DNA from: Chitinophagaceae bacterium
GTDB taxonomy: Bacteria; Bacteroidota; Bacteroidia; Chitinophagales; UBA10324
Direction of reading: 5' to 3'
Length of the DNA: 38,377 bases
Assembly (NCBI GenBank): GCA_947469485.1
Contig: CANIPU010000022.1
Location: 1 to 38,377, forward strand
The position numbers and the translations under genes are program-made. Below the pieces are notes generated by a model. The model saw only the letters and a list, made by a program, of their open reading frames with translations, was not told the DNA's origin and made no database searches. Shown here piece by piece: positions 14,786 to 37,845 of the stretch. Each line of letters opens with the position of its first letter. The stretch's first letter is position 1.

Positions 14786-16327
14786 CTAAAACGGAGAACC
14801 CTCATCATCTGGTTTATTATCCCAGTTTTTTGATTTCATAACTTGCACAGATCCTTCTGAATTTTGAGTGAAACCTTCTCGCGCAACACCTGATGAGAAA
14901 GGAGATACATTGTAATCTTCAAACTTTGCAAAGCGGTCAATGAATTTAAGTTGCACAGTTCCAAGTGCACCATTACGATGTTTCTGTACTAATATTTCTG
15001 CTAATCCATTGTATTGTTGCCCTGCTTCATCCTGACTCATATTATAATATTCAGGCCGCCATATAAACATAACCATATCTGCATCTTGTTCAATTGCTCC
15101 CGATTCGCGGAGGTCACTCAACTGCGGTTTCTTACTGCCACCTCGTGTTTCTACAGCACGACTTAATTGAGAAAGTGCAATTACTGGTACACTTAATTCC
15201 TTTGCTATACTTTTTAATGAGCGAGAAATTGTACTGATTTCTTGTTCACGGTTAAAAGATTTATCGCCGGTGCCACCACTCATCAGTTGTAAATAATCAA
15301 TAACAATAAGCTGAATGTCGTGCTGCATTTTTAAGCGTCGACATTTTGCACGCAATTCAAAAATATTTATAGCCGGTGTATCATCAATGAATATCGGAGC
15401 GTCTGATAGTTTTTCAATGTTTGAAGTAAGCTGAGTCCATTCATATTCCTCCAGGTTTCCTTTTCTGAGCTTATCTGAAGGTATTTGAGTTTCGGCTGAA
15501 ATCAATCTTGAAGTCAATTGCAAATCACTCATTTCAAGTGAAAAGAAAGCGACTGGTTTTTTAAAATCAACAGCAGCATTGCGTGCAAGCGAAAGCACGA
15601 AAGCAGTTTTACCCATTCCAGGTCTAGCTGCAACTATTATCAAATCACTTTTTTGCCAACCACCTGTAATTCGGTCTAGTTCAGTAAAGCCAGAAGGCAC
15701 CCCATTAAAATCGAGTTTGTTATCTCTTAGACTTTGAACCTGCTTAATATTTTTTGTAACCAGTTCTGAAATTGAACTAAAGTTGCGACGGAGATTTTTA
15801 TCGGTTATATCATAAATGTTTTTCTCTGCCTTATCCAATAACTCCAACACATCTGTTGTGTCTTCATATGAATCACGGATAATAATCGAACTTATGCGAA
15901 TCAATTCTCGCTGAATGAATTTTTGACTGATAATGCGGGCATGGTATTCAACATTGGCTGCACTACCAACACGATTTGTTAATTCAGCAACGGTAAATGC
16001 TCCACCAACTTTTTCAATATCACCTTGTTTTCGTAATTCTTCGGTAACAGTTAATATATCTACAGGTTGTGAGCGATTGAATAAACTGAAAATTGCTTTA
16101 TAAATACATTGATGCGCCTCTACATAAAAACTTTCCGGCTTAAGAATATCAATTACTAATGCAACAGCATCCTTCTCCAACATCATAGCACCCAAAACGG
16201 CTTCTTCCAGATCCCGTGCTTGTGGTTGAATACGGCCGTAAAGCATTGCCGATAAATCGGTTTCAGTATGCCGCTTGGAAATTACCCGTGGGCGCTCAAT
16301 TTTTGTTTCTTCGTTCGGGTCAGTCAT
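14786..16327 (-). CDS. dnaB: Replicative DNA helicase DnaB
   Basis: Hexameric 5'-3' helicase of the replication fork. At 513 residues from the ATG at 16327 (MTDPNEETK) it is slightly longer than the usual 450-470, with an extra basic N-terminus. An in-frame ATG at 16357 would add 10 residues and cannot be excluded. The N-terminal helical domain (PQARDLEEAVLGAMML, primase-interacting) is followed by a linker and the RecA-like C-terminal domain. That domain has Walker A ARPGMGKTAF (about residues 234-243), FFSLEMSDLQLTSRLIS, the Walker B strand LIVIDYLQLM, ALSQLSRAVETR (arginine region), and QLSDLRESGAIEQDADMVMF. No intein or insertion is seen. It is convergent with the phosphatase gene, 65 nt apart. 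Confidence 0.96.
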   Translation of the reverse strand: MTDPNEETKIERPRVISKRHTETDLSAMLYGRIQPQARDLEEAVLGAMMLEKDAVALVIDILKPESFYVEAHQCIYKAIFSLFNRSQPVDILTVTEELRKQGDIEKVGGAFTVAELTNRVGSAANVEYHARIISQKFIQRELIRISSIIIRDSYEDTTDVLELLDKAEKNIYDITDKNLRRNFSSISELVTKNIKQVQSLRDNKLDFNGVPSGFTELDRITGGWQKSDLIIVAARPGMGKTAFVLSLARNAAVDFKKPVAFFSLEMSDLQLTSRLISAETQIPSDKLRKGNLEEYEWTQLTSNIEKLSDAPIFIDDTPAINIFELRAKCRRLKMQHDIQLIVIDYLQLMSGGTGDKSFNREQEISTISRSLKSIAKELSVPVIALSQLSRAVETRGGSKKPQLSDLRESGAIEQDADMVMFIWRPEYYNMSQDEAGQQYNGLAEILVQKHRNGALGTVQLKFIDRFAKFEDYNVSPFSSGVAREGFTQNSEGSVQVMKSKNWDNKPDDEGSPF

Positions 16328-16378
16328 TTTTTTAAGGGCGACAAGAATAGAAAACATTCCTTGTCAATTCCATAATTA

Positions 16379-16386: not shown

Positions 16387-16504
16387 TCCTGTGTATAAAA
16401 ATCAGATAGTCGTGGATAGGATGTTGATAAAGAAAGAATTTTTTAATTCAAGTTTTATTGAAAACAACTGACGAATTGCATTTATAAATTGAAAAATATT
16501 AAAA

Positions 16505-17889: not shown

Positions 17890-19089
17890 ATGAGTACAAT
17901 TGACAATATTAATTTCTTGAATAAGAAAGCAATCATTCGGGTAGATTTTAATGTTCCGTTGGATAAAAAAACATTAGAAATTACTGATGACACAAGAATC
18001 AAATCCTCTTTAAAAACAATAAATAAAATAATAAAAGCAGGAGGGGCTGTAATTTTAATGTCGCACCTTGGGAGGCCAAAATCTGGGCCGGAAGAAAAAT
18101 ATTCGTTAAAACATATAGTTAATCATATTTCTAAATTATTAGGCAGGGAAGTAAAATTTGTTGCAAACTGTATTGGAGAGGAAGTTAAAGAAGCCGCAAC
18201 TAACTTAAAATCAGGTGAAGTTTTGCTGTTGGAAAATTTACGATTTCATTCTGAAGAAGAAAAAGGCAATGATAACTTTGCTAAAGAATTAGCATCATTA
18301 GCTGATATATATATAAATGATGCATTTGGAACTGCTCATAGAGCGCATGCCTCAACTTCAATTATCGCTAAATATTATTCCAAGGAAAATAAAATATTCG
18401 GCTATTTAATGGCGAGCGAAATTGCCAGTGCTGAAATGGTAATGAAAAATACTAAACATCCATTCACTGCAATTATTGGTGGCGCAAAAGTTTCCGACAA
18501 AATTTTAATACTTGAAAAATTAGTTGATGTCGCTGATTATATAATAATTGGCGGAGGAATGTCTTATACTTTTTTCAAAGCTATGGGGGGGAATATTGGA
18601 AATTCATTGTGTGAAGATGACCGAATTGAAAATGCAATTAAACTTTTAGAAAAAGCAAAACAGAAAAATGTAAAATTTTTATTGCCAGTCGATTCAATGA
18701 CTTCTGATGTATTTGGAAATGATGGAACTAGAAAGACAGCTGACAGTATGGATATTGAAGCAGGATTCATGGGGCTCGACATCGGACCAAAAGCGGTTGA
18801 AGAATTTTCCGAAACAATTATGAATTCAAAAACAATTTTGTGGAATGGACCAATGGGAGTTTTTGAAATGAGTAATTTCAGAAATGGCACCGTAAAAATT
18901 GCTGAGGCAATTGCAAATTCAACATCAAATGGAGCATATTCATTAGTTGGTGGTGGTGATAGTGTTGCAGCCGTAAATCAATTTGGGTTTGCTGATAAAG
19001 TAAGTTATGTATCAACCGGCGGCGGTGCTTTATTGGAATATTTTGAAGGAAAAGAATTGCCAGGAGTAGCGGCTATTTTAAATGATTAA
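17890..19089 (+). CDS. pgk: Phosphoglycerate kinase
   Basis: Transfers phosphate from 1,3-bisphosphoglycerate to ADP, making ATP. The 399-residue protein has the full two-domain fold. The N-terminal substrate domain has KKAIIRVDFNVPLD, ILMSHLGRPKSGPEEKYSL, LLENLRFHSEEEKGN and FGTAHRAHAST. The C-terminal nucleotide domain has AIIGGAKVSDKILILEKL, the Gly-rich IIGGGMSYTF, LWNGPMGVFE and the C-terminal GGGDSVAAVNQFG with the YVSTGGGALLEY loop. Start at ATG 17890. It follows gap on the same strand, a common pairing of consecutive pathway steps. A stem-loop with a T-rich tail follows the stop. Confidence 0.97.
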   Translation: MSTIDNINFLNKKAIIRVDFNVPLDKKTLEITDDTRIKSSLKTINKIIKAGGAVILMSHLGRPKSGPEEKYSLKHIVNHISKLLGREVKFVANCIGEEVKEAATNLKSGEVLLLENLRFHSEEEKGNDNFAKELASLADIYINDAFGTAHRAHASTSIIAKYYSKENKIFGYLMASEIASAEMVMKNTKHPFTAIIGGAKVSDKILILEKLVDVADYIIIGGGMSYTFFKAMGGNIGNSLCEDDRIENAIKLLEKAKQKNVKFLLPVDSMTSDVFGNDGTRKTADSMDIEAGFMGLDIGPKAVEEFSETIMNSKTILWNGPMGVFEMSNFRNGTVKIAEAIANSTSNGAYSLVGGGDSVAAVNQFGFADKVSYVSTGGGALLEYFEGKELPGVAAILND

Positions 19090-19369
19090 TAGTAAATTGA
19101 TTTATTAAAATATTACCAAAGTCCTTTCAAATGAATGAAAGACTTTCTTTTTCTCCCACTTTTCCCCATATGAAAAATGTTTTATGCATTTAATAGCACA
19201 AATTAAATTATTAATATAAGCTGAACTCCTTGTTGGTAAAGGGTTTCATTGAGTTTGTTTATTACAAATACCATTTCTATATTTTTTAAATTCAAGTAAC
19301 TAAGATAATTATTGTTGAAAACTTAAATTATTGATATTCAATACTTAAACGGCTTATTTGTTCGTTTGT
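19090..19369. other. Non-coding spacer between pgk and the dcw operon
   Basis: Contains the pgk terminator at its left end. The rest (about 19154-19369) is strongly AT-rich and I found no open frame, tRNA or clear promoter in it. The mraZ operator starts at 19370. Confidence 0.6.
19118..19153 (+). terminator. Terminator after pgk
   Basis: AAAGTCCTTTCA (19118-19129) pairs with TGAAAGACTTT (19136-19146) leaving one bulged C, followed by CTTTTTCT. It lies 29 nt after the pgk stop. Confidence 0.7.
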
Positions 19370-19423
19370 GTGAAAGATTGTGGAGAAAAGTGGTAAAAAG
19401 TGGATTACACTTATTTACATTTG
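19370..19423 (+). promoter_or_regulatory. mraZ promoter with MraZ-type operator repeats
   Basis: GTGG occurs at 19380, 19390 and 19400, exactly 10 bp apart, each followed by A or T and an A-rich spacer, with a degenerate GTGA at 19370 in the same phase. MraZ proteins are known to bind short G-rich direct repeats at 10-bp spacing upstream of their own gene (TGGGN repeats in E. coli; AAAGTG-type repeats in Mycoplasma). A perfect -7 box TACATTTG (19416-19423) follows, so the repeats cover the -33 region. Binding would therefore repress the whole dcw operon. Confidence 0.72.
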
Positions 19424-19444
19424 AACCGCACTCGTTAGACAGCA

Positions 19445-19918
19445 ATGAAGCAAACACATTTAATCGGCGAATTTGAAATCAGCATGGATGCAAAAGGCCG
19501 TGTAATGATTCCTGCCGGATTAAAGCGCCAGCTTCCTAAAGAGGCAAACGATAAATTGGTTATTAATCGGGGCTTTGAAAAATGCTTGGTTTTATATCCA
19601 TATAATGAGTGGGAAGTAATTACCACTGAACTCAATAAGTTGAATTTATACATGAAGGATAATCGCGATTTTGTTCGCTATTTCTATCGTGGTGCAACTG
19701 AATTAAGCCTGGATGCAAGTAGCCGTGTTTTATTACCCAAACCTTTATTGGATTATGCTGGCATTGAAAAAGATGCAGTGTTGTTTGCTTATTCAAATCG
19801 AATTGAAGTTTGGAGTAAAAAACTGTACCACTCACAAATGGATGAAGAGCCTCGTGATTTTGTGAAATTGGCTGAACAGGTAATGGGAAAAATTAACGGA
19901 ACCGGAAATGTTTCATAA
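19445..19918 (+). CDS. mraZ: Transcriptional regulator MraZ
   Basis: First gene of the dcw cluster; a 157-residue AbrB-like DNA-binding protein that forms ring oligomers and represses its own operon. Two MraZ repeats are visible: residues about 5-50 (GEFEISMDAKGRVMIPAGLKRQL) and about 77-125 (RGATELSLDASSRVLLPKPL), each with the DxxGR/DxxSR signature. Length is slightly above the usual 140-150. The ATG at 19445 is preceded by the operator repeats described at 19370-19423. The end overlaps rsmH by 11 nt, so the two are translationally coupled, as is common in this cluster. Confidence 0.96.
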   Translation: MKQTHLIGEFEISMDAKGRVMIPAGLKRQLPKEANDKLVINRGFEKCLVLYPYNEWEVITTELNKLNLYMKDNRDFVRYFYRGATELSLDASSRVLLPKPLLDYAGIEKDAVLFAYSNRIEVWSKKLYHSQMDEEPRDFVKLAEQVMGKINGTGNVS

Positions 19919-20801
19919 ACCGGTAATGCTTAAAGAATGTATGGAAGCATTGGAAATTAAACCATCAGGAAAATATGTTGATGTCACTTTTGGCGGCGGC
20001 GGACACAGTCGTGCTATTTTGGATCAACTAAATTCTGAAGGTAGACTATATGCTTTCGATCAGGATAAAGATGCCGTTAAAAATAAATTCAATGATGAGC
20101 GTCTGATTTTTGTCCCTCAGAACTTTCGTCACCTTCGTCGTTTTCTCAAAGTCTATGATGCCCATAGCATAGATGGGATTTTAGCAGACCTTGGGATATC
20201 TTCTCACCAGATTGATACACCTGAAAGAGGATTCTCAATTCGATACGAAGCAAAACTTGATATGAGAATGGATGCTTCATTGGAAAAAACGGCGGCCGAT
20301 ATTCTAAATTCTTATTCTTCAGAGCAATTGCAAAATATTTTCAGCAGCTATGGTGAATTAAGAAATTCCAAAACACTGGCTGAATTAATTGTAAAAGAAA
20401 GATTGGTAACTCCATTCACAACAACTACTGATTTTATTTCAAGAATTGAATCTTGTATCAGGGGGCATCGCCCACGCTACCTCGCTCAGGTTTTTCAGGC
20501 TTTGCGAATGGAAGTGAATCAGGAAATGAATTCTCTGGAAGAACTTATGAAGCAAAGCAGCGAAGTGTTATCAAAGGGTGGAAGAATGGCAGTGCTTACT
20601 TACCATTCGCTTGAAGACAGAATGGTAAAGAATTTTTTTAAAGCAGGTAATGCTTCCGGCGAAGAAGTGAAAGATTTATTCGGACACAGTGAAAAAATTT
20701 TTACGCTGGTAAATAAAAAGCCAATCACGGCAGCTGAAGAAGAGATAAAAGAAAACCCAAGAGCAAGAAGTGCAAAATTGAGAATAGCTATAAAAAATTA
20801 A
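19908..20801 (+). CDS. rsmH: 16S rRNA (cytosine1402-N4)-methyltransferase RsmH
   Basis: SAM-dependent methyltransferase of 297 residues acting on C1402 in the ribosomal P site. Signature motifs: HKPVMLKECMEAL at the N-terminus, VDVTFGGGGHSRAIL (SAM loop, about residues 24-38), AFDQDKDA, DGILADLGISSHQID, GFSIRYEAKLDMRMD, RPRYLAQVFQALRMEVN, and the C-terminal LTYHSLEDRMVKNFF with NPRARSAKLR. Start at ATG 19908 inside the last codons of mraZ. ftsL follows 3 nt after the stop. In most bacteria it sits second in the dcw cluster, exactly as here. Confidence 0.97.
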   Translation: MFHKPVMLKECMEALEIKPSGKYVDVTFGGGGHSRAILDQLNSEGRLYAFDQDKDAVKNKFNDERLIFVPQNFRHLRRFLKVYDAHSIDGILADLGISSHQIDTPERGFSIRYEAKLDMRMDASLEKTAADILNSYSSEQLQNIFSSYGELRNSKTLAELIVKERLVTPFTTTTDFISRIESCIRGHRPRYLAQVFQALRMEVNQEMNSLEELMKQSSEVLSKGGRMAVLTYHSLEDRMVKNFFKAGNASGEEVKDLFGHSEKIFTLVNKKPITAAEEEIKENPRARSAKLRIAIKN

Positions 20802-34899: not shown

Positions 34900-34931
34900 G
34901 CAGGCGCATAGCGCTATGCTCATCTCAAGAT

Positions 34932-34948
34932 AACCCAGTAAGTGGGTT
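34932..34948 (+). terminator. Short hairpin after ftsZ
   Basis: AACCCA (34932-34937) and TGGGTT (34943-34948) form a 6-bp stem with a GTAAG loop followed by TT only. It may assist the stronger terminator just downstream. Confidence 0.4.
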
Positions 34949-34958
34949 TTGGTTTGGT

Positions 34959-34996
34959 AAGTCCCGACATGCTGCGAAGCCTGCGGGACTTTTTTA
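34959..34996 (+). terminator. Terminator of the dcw operon
   Basis: AAGTCCCG (34959-34966) pairs perfectly with CGGGACTT (34984-34991), and the run of T continues to 34996. It lies 60 nt after the ftsZ stop. The 17-nt loop contains a nested GCTGCGAAGC segment that can also pair. Confidence 0.78.
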
Positions 34997-35059
34997 TTTC
35001 AAATACTATTTGTCTCTCATAGCAATATCACTCTGAGCTTGTCTACGAGTTGGGCAAGT

Positions 35060-35087
35060 CCCCAAGCATTGATTACAATGCAAGGGG
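35060..35087. repeat. Palindrome CCCC-aa-GCATT-gattac-AATGC-aa-GGGG
   Basis: A 5-bp inner stem (GCATT/AATGC) around the loop GATTAC, then an AA/AA internal mismatch and a 4-bp outer GC stem. The same GATTAC loop recurs at 35116-35121. Confidence 0.6.
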
Positions 35088-35106
35088 TCGGGCTTTCCCT
35101 TTCAAT

Positions 35107-35130
35107 CTTTTTATTGATTACAATAAAAAG
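35107..35130. repeat. Palindrome CTTTTTATT-gattac-AATAAAAAG
   Basis: A perfect 9-bp stem around the same GATTAC loop as the previous palindrome; the stem sequence differs completely but still ends in ATT and resumes with AAT. Confidence 0.6.
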
Positions 35131-35157
35131 GATTTACAGTACAATCCCTCTTGCGGC
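35125..35157. repeat. 33-nt direct repeat, left copy (with GGATT-tacagtac-AATCC palindrome)
   Basis: Identical over 33 nt to 36143-36175; similarity continues for eight more bases with two mismatches. It contains the palindrome GGATT/AATCC with loop TACAGTAC (35130-35147). Confidence 0.75.
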
Positions 35158-35217
35158 TTACGCACCTATTCACTGTTACATATTTTTTCAATGTGTATTT
35201 TTTTGCGACAGTGTTCT

Positions 35218-35236
35218 GCTCGATTTGCAATCGAGC
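35218..35236 (+). repeat. REP palindrome 1 (GCTCGATT-TGC-AATCGAGC)
   Basis: Perfect 8-bp stem and 3-nt loop TGC. The surrounding 29 nt (35212-35240) recur inverted at 36059-36087. Confidence 0.8.
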
Positions 35237-35248
35237 TGTACAAAGTAA

Positions 35249-35265
35249 GTCGGTTTGTAACCGAC
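35249..35265 (+). repeat. REP palindrome 2 (GTCGGTT-TGT-AACCGAC)
   Basis: Perfect 7-bp stem, loop TGT. It forms a pair with palindrome 1, with start points 31 nt apart. Confidence 0.75.
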
Positions 35266-35308
35266 AGCATCCGCAAATATTTCGCATAAAAGTTCAAAGC
35301 AATGTTCT

Positions 35309-35327
35309 GCTCGATTTGCAATCGAGC
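35309..35327 (+). repeat. REP palindrome 3 (same unit as palindrome 1)
   Basis: Identical stem and loop to palindrome 1; 29 nt (35301-35329) match the inverted copy at 36061-36089. It lies 91 nt after palindrome 1. Confidence 0.8.
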
Positions 35328-35340
35328 TGAGCTAAGTGTT

Positions 35341-35355
35341 ACGATTTGTAATCGT
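35341..35355 (+). repeat. REP palindrome 4 (ACGATT-TGT-AATCGT) with T-run
   Basis: A 6-bp stem, loop TGT, followed by TTTTTT (35355-35360), so it could also act as a weak terminator before the RAYT gene. It is 32 nt after palindrome 3, repeating the pair layout of palindromes 1 and 2. Confidence 0.7.
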
Positions 35356-35408
35356 TTTTTAACAGATGAAAAAATTAGCGATTACAAAATCAATTTTAAC
35401 TTTACACA

Positions 35409-35975
35409 ATGAGCGCCTATGCAATCAGAGAAAAAGACGGAATTTATTTTCTCACCTCAACTATTGTAGGTTGGGTAGATGTATTCACTCGCCAACAATA
35501 CCGCGATATAATTCTTGATAGTTTTAATTATTGCAGAAAAAATAAAAATCTGAATGTTCATGCTTATGTAATCATGAGCAACCACATGCATTGGTTAGCT
35601 TCAGCAAAACCCGGATTCGAACTCGACGGTGTTGTGCGTGATTTCAAAAAGCACACAAGCAAAGAGATTGTAAAAGCAATTGAAGCAAACGAAAAAGAAA
35701 GCAGAAAAGAATGGCTGCTAAACATGTTTGCATTTGCCGGCCACACCCACACAGATAATGAAAAAAATAAACTCTGGCAAAAAGGAAATCATCCTGAAAT
35801 TATTTACACCGATAAATTCTTCGACCAGAAATTAAATTACATACACAACAATCCTGTTCGTGCGGGCTTGGTTGAGCAACCCGAAGATTATCTTTACAGC
35901 AGTGCTCGTGATTATAAGGGCAAGAAAGGATTAATAGAAATAGATACTATCATTCTGACTCAGTTCATAAAATGA
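35409..35975 (+). CDS. REP-associated tyrosine transposase (RAYT, Y1/HUH family)
   Basis: A 188-residue Y1-type single-strand transposase. The HUH metal site is in VIMSNHMHWL (His59 and His61). The nucleophile Tyr144 is in FFDQKLNYIHNNPVRAGLVEQPEDYLYSSA, the C-terminal block diagnostic of RAYTs. The N-terminus GIYFLTSTIVGWVDVF and the middle DFKKHTSKEIVKAI are also typical. RAYTs cut and join single-stranded DNA at REP palindromes and are usually single-copy, vertically kept domesticated transposases. The gene is intact, with the catalytic residues present. It sits among REP palindromes on both sides, which supports function with its own REP set. It is monocistronic; no clear TAnnTTTG box was found upstream (TAACTTTA at 35397-35404 is one base off). 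Confidence 0.93.
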   Translation: MSAYAIREKDGIYFLTSTIVGWVDVFTRQQYRDIILDSFNYCRKNKNLNVHAYVIMSNHMHWLASAKPGFELDGVVRDFKKHTSKEIVKAIEANEKESRKEWLLNMFAFAGHTHTDNEKNKLWQKGNHPEIIYTDKFFDQKLNYIHNNPVRAGLVEQPEDYLYSSARDYKGKKGLIEIDTIILTQFIK

Positions 35976-36011
35976 AAGCATGCACACATTATGCAAACCT
36001 CAAATCGCATG

Positions 36012-36028
36012 TCCCGCTGGCAGCGGGA
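36012..36028. repeat. Palindrome TCCCGCT-ggc-AGCGGGA
   Basis: A perfect 7-bp GC-rich stem with a 3-nt loop, 36 nt after the RAYT stop. Its stem and loop differ from the TGC/TGT family, but its size and 3-nt loop agree. Confidence 0.65.
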
Positions 36029-36031
36029 TAT

Positions 36032-36050
36032 GTTCCATTACAAATGGAAC
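36032..36050 (-). repeat. REP palindrome (GTTCCATT-TGT-AATGGAAC on the minus strand)
   Basis: A perfect 8-bp stem. Read on the minus strand the loop is TGT, the same as palindromes 2 and 4, so it lies in the opposite orientation to the left-hand set. Confidence 0.75.
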
Positions 36051-36062
36051 TCATTCAATACA

Positions 36063-36081
36063 GCTCGATTGCAAATCGAGC
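36063..36081 (-). repeat. REP palindrome, inverted copy of palindromes 1 and 3
   Basis: The minus strand reads GCTCGATT-TGC-AATCGAGC with the same flanks (36059-36089) as the two left copies, placing the transposase gene between inverted REPs. Confidence 0.8.
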
Positions 36082-36142
36082 AGAACATTCGGGCATATCG
36101 AGCGCAACGGGGATGTCATTCTGAGTTTATCGAAGAAACATA

Positions 36143-36175
36143 AAAAAGGATTTACAGTACAATCCCTCTTGCGGC
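36143..36175. repeat. 33-nt direct repeat, right copy
   Basis: Exact copy of 35125-35157, including the GGATT-tacagtac-AATCC palindrome (36148-36165). The rest of the interval to 36315 shows no gene. Confidence 0.75.
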
Positions 36176-36315
36176 ATACCCACTCTTTTGCGTTAACATG
36201 TTTTTTCTGAAGAACCACAAACCGAAAGAGATAAGATTTTTGGATATGTGAAGGATATGATGGAGAAATAAATTTCACTGGAGGACTTTGATGATCACCA
36301 AGTCTGAATTGAAAA

Positions 36316-37845
36316 CTATTCAATAATAATTTTCATTACTTGTTTATTCTTCCCATTTCCAATATTTAAAATATAAGTTCCAGAAGTAAGAGATTGATCG
36401 AAGTGTAACACCTCAGTATGATTACCCTGTGGGCGAATTTCATCTGTCATAAATATTTGCATTAATTTTCCCTGAACATCAAATAATTCAATGTTAAGTT
36501 TTTCATCTTGGGCAAGTATATATTTTAAAATGGCTTGTAAATGAACAGGGTTTGGATAAATCAGATAGCTATCCTTTGATAAATCAAGTGTTTCTAAATC
36601 AAATCCAGATAAGAATCTGTAAACTACATATTCATTTGTAACAAGAATTTTATTTGTTGATTGTATAGCAATATCAGTTGCTTGATTTGAAAACAAAGAA
36701 TCTAAAAACATACCATTATTTGCAAAGGTAGAATCCAAGGTTCCATTTGAATTAAATCGTGCCATTGTAAAATAATATGGATCACTTGAATTATAATGAG
36801 AATATCCAACGCCAACTATTTTATTATCTGACTGTAAAAAAATATCATTAAATTCATTACCGGATGCATGTATTTTGTCAAAATCTTCACGCACCATCCC
36901 TTCGGTTCCAAAAGAATTATCTAATGAACCATCTGGATTTAATCTGATAATCATGGCATGAGTATCTGCATCTGGTATACTCCAATAATACCCACCTATT
37001 AATATTTTATAATCGGATTGAGAAATCACAGAAGTAATTTGACTTTGGTGTAAACCGGCATTAGAAAACAATTCAAGCTTTCCCAATGAACCAAAAGAAT
37101 TGTCCAATGAACCATCTGAATTGTATCTCGCAACAGCACAAACTTTGTATGAACTTGTTGAATCAAATAAATTTCCTATAGCCAAAATTTTTCCATCAGG
37201 TTGAATTGTTAACGACATAAAATCTGTCCATATCATAGAAAATCCAGTTATAACTTTTCCACCTGTTCCAAAACTATTATCAAGATTTCCGTTTTGATTA
37301 TATCGAACAAGACCAAATCCAGATTTTATATTATTTATTTTAAGGTCTCCTCCGGCAATTATTTTCCCATCAGATTGAACCACCAATTGTTGAGAAGAGT
37401 AATCACCCCACAAATCAGTTTTTGAAAAGCCATTTGTTCCAAAAGATTCATCAAGCTCACCATTAGAAGTATATCTCGCAATCACAAATTGCCCCCAATT
37501 AACTTGTGAAGATGATGAAACTATAATTCTTCCATCGTCCTGTAATGCTATACCAGAACATCCTACTGCTGCATCAGGGTCTGTTGCACCATTTGCCCTT
37601 CCATTTTTTCCAAATGAATTGTCAACCTTTCCATCTGAATTAAATCGGCATAATCCAAAATTATTAACTGTACCTCCTACAATTAATATTTTATCATTTG
37701 GCTGAACTATTAAATGCTCCGCATGATAAAAACTTGTGGTAGCCCCATTAGTTCCAAATGTCGAGTCAATAGTTCCTGCTTGACCAAAACAAAAAGAAAT
37801 ATGCAACAAATAATTCGACGCAATAAGAAAATATAAATTCTTCAT
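36316..37845 (-). CDS. Secreted delta-60-repeat protein with T9SS type A sorting tail
   Basis: A 509-residue protein starting at the ATG at 37845 (MKNLYFLIASNYLLHISFCFG), which opens straight into a signal peptide of about 21 residues; the in-frame ATG at 37884 would add 13 unlikely residues. It carries seven copies of the delta-60 signature G-x-[LIV]-D-x-[ST]-F-x-x-x-G (for example GNLDNSFGTGGKV, GSLDNSFGSLGKL, GTLDSTFANNGMF), each followed by a QxDGKI-type strand (VQSDGKIIAGG, IQPDGKILAIGN). The repeats probably form a beta-propeller-like fold. Residues about 430-509 are the type A sorting domain (YLIYPNPVHLQAILKY to KQVMKIIIE). No catalytic motif is seen; function is unknown. Codon use resembles the neighbours but with more AT. 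Confidence 0.85.
   Translation of the reverse strand: MKNLYFLIASNYLLHISFCFGQAGTIDSTFGTNGATTSFYHAEHLIVQPNDKILIVGGTVNNFGLCRFNSDGKVDNSFGKNGRANGATDPDAAVGCSGIALQDDGRIIVSSSSQVNWGQFVIARYTSNGELDESFGTNGFSKTDLWGDYSSQQLVVQSDGKIIAGGDLKINNIKSGFGLVRYNQNGNLDNSFGTGGKVITGFSMIWTDFMSLTIQPDGKILAIGNLFDSTSSYKVCAVARYNSDGSLDNSFGSLGKLELFSNAGLHQSQITSVISQSDYKILIGGYYWSIPDADTHAMIIRLNPDGSLDNSFGTEGMVREDFDKIHASGNEFNDIFLQSDNKIVGVGYSHYNSSDPYYFTMARFNSNGTLDSTFANNGMFLDSLFSNQATDIAIQSTNKILVTNEYVVYRFLSGFDLETLDLSKDSYLIYPNPVHLQAILKYILAQDEKLNIELFDVQGKLMQIFMTDEIRPQGNHTEVLHFDQSLTSGTYILNIGNGKNKQVMKIIIE

Follow-up and report, generated by a model that had tools for sequence, protein, structure and literature searches.

According to excerpts of PMC7761207, MraZ of B. 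cenocepacia bound a DNA fragment containing repeats of 7 nt with 3-nt spacers, four of which follow one another at 10-nt intervals downstream of the -10 box, as in E. coli, and an octameric MraZ toroid is cited in the same source. For the MraZ operator at the E. coli mraZ promoter (Eraso et al. 2014, through the excerpted PMC8475190 and PMC4446571), the K-12 sequence (NC_000913) has GTGGgaaattGTGGggcaaaGTGG before mraZ, beginning 44 bp ahead of the ATG and after TTGACA and TAAACT, and the E. coli protein is annotated as a repressor. The Mollicute MraZ site consists of AAAGTG[T/G] direct repeats (Fisunov et al. 2016, as cited in the excerpted PMC8475190), and an M. genitalium mraZ mutant showed increased levels of mraW, MG_223, and ftsZ RNA (log2 3.02, 2.08, and 2.34, respectively; PMC8475190, in excerpt). 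DnaA, with the box consensus TTATCCACA, is listed at ftsL of B. subtilis and at ftsZ of C. crescentus (PMC8203912, in excerpt). E. coli MraZ has moreover been reported on a site overlapping the mioC DnaA box (excerpt of PMC4446571, citing Eraso et al. 2014), which provides a precedent for MraZ and DnaA meeting. Further MraZ entries are present in the PDB (9qlg, 9qlr, and 9sx6, with codes of the 2025-26 type). Among the literature matches listed, with most subscription journals outside their scope, no paper dealt with MraZ sites or dcw DnaA boxes in Bacteroidota.

The window, that is, the whole stretch of 38,377 nucleotides analysed here, carries mraZ on the plus strand at positions 19445-19918 (ATG at 19445; PF02381, 107.6 bits). 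This is the sole copy found in its own genome and the first gene of the dcw cluster, where it is followed by rsmH (mraW; PF01795; 19908-20801, plus strand), an FtsL-like gene, a gene for a penicillin-binding protein and, further on, Glyco_transf_28, Mur ligase, FtsA, and FtsZ genes. Past ftsZ, an IS200-like transposase ORF (35409-35975) has GCTCGATTTGCAATCGAGC-type sequences on both sides (34900-36320 of the window). Ahead of mraZ, the plus strand contains GTGA at 19370-19373 and GTGG at 19380-19383, 19390-19393, and 19400-19403, in steps of exactly 10 bp, just as a sequence-only reading of this DNA had described them, namely as four repeats one helical turn apart. The three GTGG are putative MraZ boxes 1, 2, and 3 and form the conserved triple, whereas GTGA is a degenerate fourth box (GTAG in other species of the same genus); mraZ starts 41 bp downstream of the array. 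A predicted -7 promoter box, TACATTTG (19416-19423, plus strand), begins 16 bp past the first base of box 3, a spacing also found in relatives, and the GTGG boxes end 12 bp ahead of it. The array spans the position expected for the -33 element, and the overlap with that region claimed in the sequence-only reading is correct as to position only, since neither TTTG nor TTG is found at the expected place in the window (19391-19396 reads TGGTAA). TTG is likewise absent there from the consensus of 88 aligned arrays. We rejected an RNA element, as no Rfam family matched positions 19000-20000 at E-values up to 1.

We compared mraZ upstream regions from relatives, from named genome contigs (the best 80 of 450), and from a phylum-wide draw, the last supplemented by 60 further stretches, some of them from the relatives' set. 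Two copies of the window (L001 and L002), duplicate upstreams, and one row that tblastn left unplaced (L151) were dropped. Among the best 80 of the 450 contigs, one MraZ (L033) is 97% identical to that of the window. Of the first 100 distinct mraZ upstreams, 75 have at least three GTGG at 10-bp steps, 12 have two, 11 have one, and 2 have none; three such GTGG did not arise in any of 10,000 dinucleotide shuffles of the mraZ upstreams, and any other period from 5 to 19 bp put two GTGG in step in at most 2 of the 100 upstreams. The sequence-only reading had proposed an MraZ operator over the dcw promoter and had named missing conservation before mraZ in relatives as one way to refute it. The repeats proved conserved before mraZ across the phylum, which supports this proposal: among 187 distinct upstreams, the triple is matched at all 12 letters in 117, at 11 or more in 149, and at 10 or more in 172, which leaves 15 with fewer than 10 matching letters. 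The 88 aligned arrays have a consensus of repeated GTGGTAAAAA, in which GTG is conserved at 99-100% and the A-rich spacers far less.

The array is also unique in its genome. The pattern GTGR-N6-GTGG-N6-GTGG has two overlapping matches in the window, both of them the array itself, and none in 100 dinucleotide shuffles of the window. GTGG-N6-GTGG-N6-GTGG occurs a single time in the 3,078,321-base genome, in the array before mraZ, and the exact GTGG triple accordingly gave no further candidate MraZ sites there. In 40 relatives we counted 27 exact triples, distributed over 20 genomes, against 6 for the reversed-pattern control; 15 are located at mraZ, with two genomes contributing two overlapping matches each, and the 12 away from it have mostly unlike spacers. 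The concentration of triples at mraZ, together with the single site in the window's own genome, fits an autoregulatory operator with one target. One exact A-rich triple, GTGGgaaaaaGTGGtaaaaaGTGG (G036:C370:299-322), looks real; despite this triple, genome G036 has no MraZ match, perhaps because of a contig end or a diverged gene.

Most arrays in the window's class have three boxes. The count of four boxes given in the sequence-only reading thus applies to a narrower group, as a fourth box, GTGA or GTAG, is common to the six same-genus species compared and to one species of a neighbouring genus, but it is degenerate. In the 131 arrays from the window's own-class side with a score of 11 or 12 out of 12, the place of a fourth box, 10 bp ahead of the triple, agrees with GTGG at three letters in 7 cases and at all four in none. 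One inner box is degraded in some members of the genus or the neighbouring genus, and several species of the same genus have an imperfect array. Variant arrays are found further afield. Three members of the same family but of other genera (L029, L030, and L031) have three GTGT instead of GTGG before mraZ, and their MraZ is only 35-36% identical to that of the window. Although 20 MraZ columns set these three apart from the rest, they form one clade, so that a comparison of MraZ residues with GTGT or GTGG specificity was uninformative. Mixed GTGG/GTGT arrays precede mraZ in family f20 (L024, L122, and L142-L146), with tatttt between two boxes and a -7-like sequence that seems to lie inside the array, so that the array seems to run into the promoter. 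In family f44, 9 of 9 genomes of the phylum draw have no MraZ match (G065, G096, G123, G138, G142, G150, G173, G181, and G269), as if mraZ had been lost or strongly changed in this lineage.

The place of the array relative to promoter-like boxes differs between classes. Layouts were scored by looking upstream of the array for a TTGAC/TAnn[TC]T pair and downstream of it for TAnnTTT[GA]. The window's own genus or family, order, and class together contribute 78 distinct upstreams. Under the scan's rule for an array, 74 of them have one; the -7 box comes after it in 59 of the 78, and none of the 78 has a -35/-10 pair ahead of it. The -7 box starts 14-16 bp past the last box in 48 of these 59 upstreams, 24-26 bp in 8, and 4-9 bp in 3. 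By contrast, in the other classes of the phylum, where 37 of 39 upstreams have an array (33 with three boxes and 4 with two), 27 of the 39 have the -35/-10 pair ahead of the array and 1 has the -7 box after it. A set of 78 distinct contig upstreams, from genomes partly overlapping the other set, gave 66 with the -7 box and none with the pair. The predicted operator would consequently lie over the -33 region in the window's class and near the start region in the other classes. The E. coli-type layout, in which the array is downstream of the -10 box, is absent from the window, where the array precedes TACATTTG, and because of this flipped position the E. coli mechanism is not simply transferable to the window's class.

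The alignment of the relatives' arrays contains a second conserved element just before box 1. By a criterion fixed beforehand, at most one mismatch to TTATCCACA, it is found at 38 of 100 arrays, compared with 0.57% of 10,239 windows elsewhere in the loci. At the same tolerance, 65 of 172 arrays have it, while 400 letter permutations of the motif averaged 2.3 and none of them scored as high; the highest one (27), TTTACCACA, is the reverse complement of the MraZ box with the preceding T. A wider count with eight 9-mers, which were picked after the data were seen, placed the element within 40 bp upstream of 112 of 139 own-class-side arrays, in comparison with 47 of 5648 AT-matched windows elsewhere. 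The next three upstream steps of 40 bp gave 11, 14, and 8 of the 139 arrays, the 40 bp after the array none of the 139, and the reversed 9-mers 2 of the 139. In other classes, a 9-mer lies within 40 bp of 1 of 30 arrays and in the next step in 4 of 30. A 400-kb sample of genome G155 served as a further background, with a 9-mer in 30 of 2101 intergenic windows (23 for the reversed control) and in 6 of 149 ORF upstreams (control 0). Judged by the 16 commonest values listed, the offsets concentrate between -10 and -12 when the element is on the plus strand and between -14 and -16 when it is on the minus strand; smaller groups lie farther away. The commonest forms are TTATTAACA and TTATCAACA. For the class as a whole, a putative DnaA box is a strong reading of the element; for the window's own genome the same identification is tentative. 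No such 9-mer is present within 40 bp of its box 1, and a DnaA-box-like TTTTCAACA (19313-19321, minus strand), with two mismatches to TTATCCACA, may represent a displaced copy, 58 bp before box 1 and inside a 15-bp block that is identical in the three closest species. Given that the 9-mers occur in 10 of 201 intergenic test windows of the window, against 5 for the reversed control, TTTTCAACA may also be a chance match.

Residue 435 of DnaA (numbering checked in E. coli), which we take to contact the DnaA box, is Thr, Ser, or Ala in the genomes examined. Of 43 genomes with Ala435, 42 have A as the sixth base of the element, and of 33 with Ser or Thr, 22 have C; another 18 of the 94 genomes (15 with Ser, 2 with Thr, and 1 with Ala), including that of the window, lack the element within 40 bp of the array. 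This tabulation excludes one duplicate (L040) and four genomes with no usable DnaA locus (G020, G028, G297, and G300), and the MraZ tree excludes four truncated MraZ readings. Genome G090 combines Ser with TTATCCACA, although the other members of family f25 examined have Ala, and G082 combines Ala with TTTTCCACA, against the rule. Resolution of the MraZ tree is poor, with stars on 16 of its 69 inner branches, and a sign test on the starred branches found 1 or 2 independent pairs and was not significant. With so few independent switches on the trees, the Fisher value of 5e-10 for residue 435 overstates the evidence.

Of 32 genomes, 29 have at least one copy of the pattern TTWTNMACA upstream of dnaB, with 59 matches in total against 11 for the reversed control. 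Its sixth base is A in 24 of 28 dnaB boxes in Ala genomes and in 17 of 31 in the others (Fisher p 0.012, likewise overstated by the few independent switches). In the window, TTATACACA at 16390 and TTATCAACA at 16422, both on the minus strand, are found upstream of dnaB (14786-16357, minus strand), and pairs with a distance of 20-21 bp are present before dnaB in several relatives. Two genomes of family f23 have DnaA-like boxes at ftsZ: five in 60 bp between ftsA and ftsZ in G117 (L336:4471-4530) and three before ftsZ in G041 (L337:1504-1550). Of the further stretches scanned, G132 alone gave a candidate replication origin (L335:1402-1569), with five exact TTATCCACA in 168 bp between ORFs. We detected no dense box cluster near dnaA in the neighbourhoods from 15 genomes, several of whose contigs begin just before dnaA, and the GC skew across 20 samples of 20 kb taken from G155 was not strong enough to place the origin.

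A rival to the DnaA box is that the neighbouring element serves as an additional MraZ site or is bound by some other protein, which we consider a sizeable though lesser possibility. It is favoured by the GTGG that TTTTCCACA holds on its other strand, by the few independent switches and the contrary case of G082 behind the residue-435 link, and by the DnaA-like pair pattern, which barely exceeds its reversed control genome-wide (56 vs 45 in 16 genomes). Nevertheless, the two commonest forms have no GTGG on either strand, the element occurs in either orientation with main offsets that appear to fall outside the 10-bp step of the array, and the same TTWTNMACA pattern recurs before dnaB and, in G117 and G041, before ftsZ. 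A fuller scenario built on the DnaA box is one to which we give slightly less than even chances: the promoter of the class would have been rebuilt by placing the operator upstream of the -7 box and gaining a DnaA box, DnaA and MraZ would jointly set dcw expression, the sixth base would have changed from C to A along with Thr or Ser to Ala at position 435, dnaB would belong to the same regulon, and the box of the window would have been displaced upstream.

Judging from sequence comparison, the repeats before dcw are very probably the binding site of MraZ, that is, the predicted operator of the dcw operon. Neighbouring subunits of the toroidal protein would sit on successive GTGG boxes, on one face of the DNA and one turn apart. 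As the boxes occupy the -33 place and end 12 bp before the -7 box, bound MraZ would most likely exclude sigma and RNA polymerase, and thereby repress mraZ and dcw by autoregulation. Since a DnaA-like site adjoins the first box in most members of the class, DnaA is probably a second input at the same promoter, which would tie dcw expression to the replication initiator. What the sequences show directly is the presence of the repeats, how conserved, spaced, and unique they are, and where they stand relative to promoter-like boxes. We infer MraZ binding, repression, and DnaA as the neighbour, and we are highly confident in the combination of an MraZ operator, repression of mraZ and dcw by MraZ, and DnaA as second input in most of the class. 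The main rival to repression also takes the array as the MraZ site and holds that MraZ, alone or with DnaA, activates from upstream and replaces the missing -33 contact. The position of the array upstream of the -7 box and the lack of TTG at -33, both in the window and in the 88-array consensus, would suit such an activator; we nonetheless regard it as unlikely, as the array extends across the -33 region and does not stop short of it, and MraZ acts as a repressor in E. coli, according to its annotation, and in M. genitalium, according to the excerpted PMC8475190. That the repeats merely bend DNA, as phased A-rich runs of an upstream promoter element with no specific regulator, is very improbable: the spacers are A-rich and one turn apart, but the GTG core is conserved far above them and in other classes of the phylum a -35/-10 pair stands upstream of these boxes.

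These comparisons place a conserved candidate MraZ operator in Bacteroidota. The window shares with E. coli the GTGG-N6-GTGG-N6-GTGG framework just before mraZ, but the E. coli array is downstream of TTGACA/TAAACT, whereas that of the window is upstream of a TAnnTTTG -7 box. With the excerpted Mollicute site it has in common direct repeats before mraZ, a GTG core, and an A-rich flank, and differs in its fourth base, G; among the arrays compared here, the GTGT arrays of L029-L031 resemble that site the most. The sequence-only reading had judged the repeats closer to the Mycoplasma AAAGTG form than to the E. coli TGGG. We cannot uphold this, as GTGGgaaattGTGGggcaaaGTGG of E. coli K-12 has the same core and 10-bp period, and the window is no closer to the Mollicute site, as excerpted, than to the E. 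coli one. TGGG is the same box read one base later, so the contrast between TGGG-type and AAAGTG-type sites is largely one of naming. The B. cenocepacia site, as far as the excerpt describes it, similarly presents four repeats on a 10-nt step before mraZ, yet downstream of the -10 box and over the start site. In one class, that of the window, the order of operator and promoter is flipped, which implies that the MraZ mechanism need not be the same everywhere. The mioC promoter, in the excerpted account, resembles the class in bringing MraZ and DnaA or DnaA-like sites together at one promoter, unlike the window itself, which has no close DnaA-like copy. However, mioC is beside oriC, whereas here the pairing concerns the dcw promoter and is widespread in the class, and with both kinds of site adjoining at one promoter, a link between replication and division becomes testable with simple mutants.
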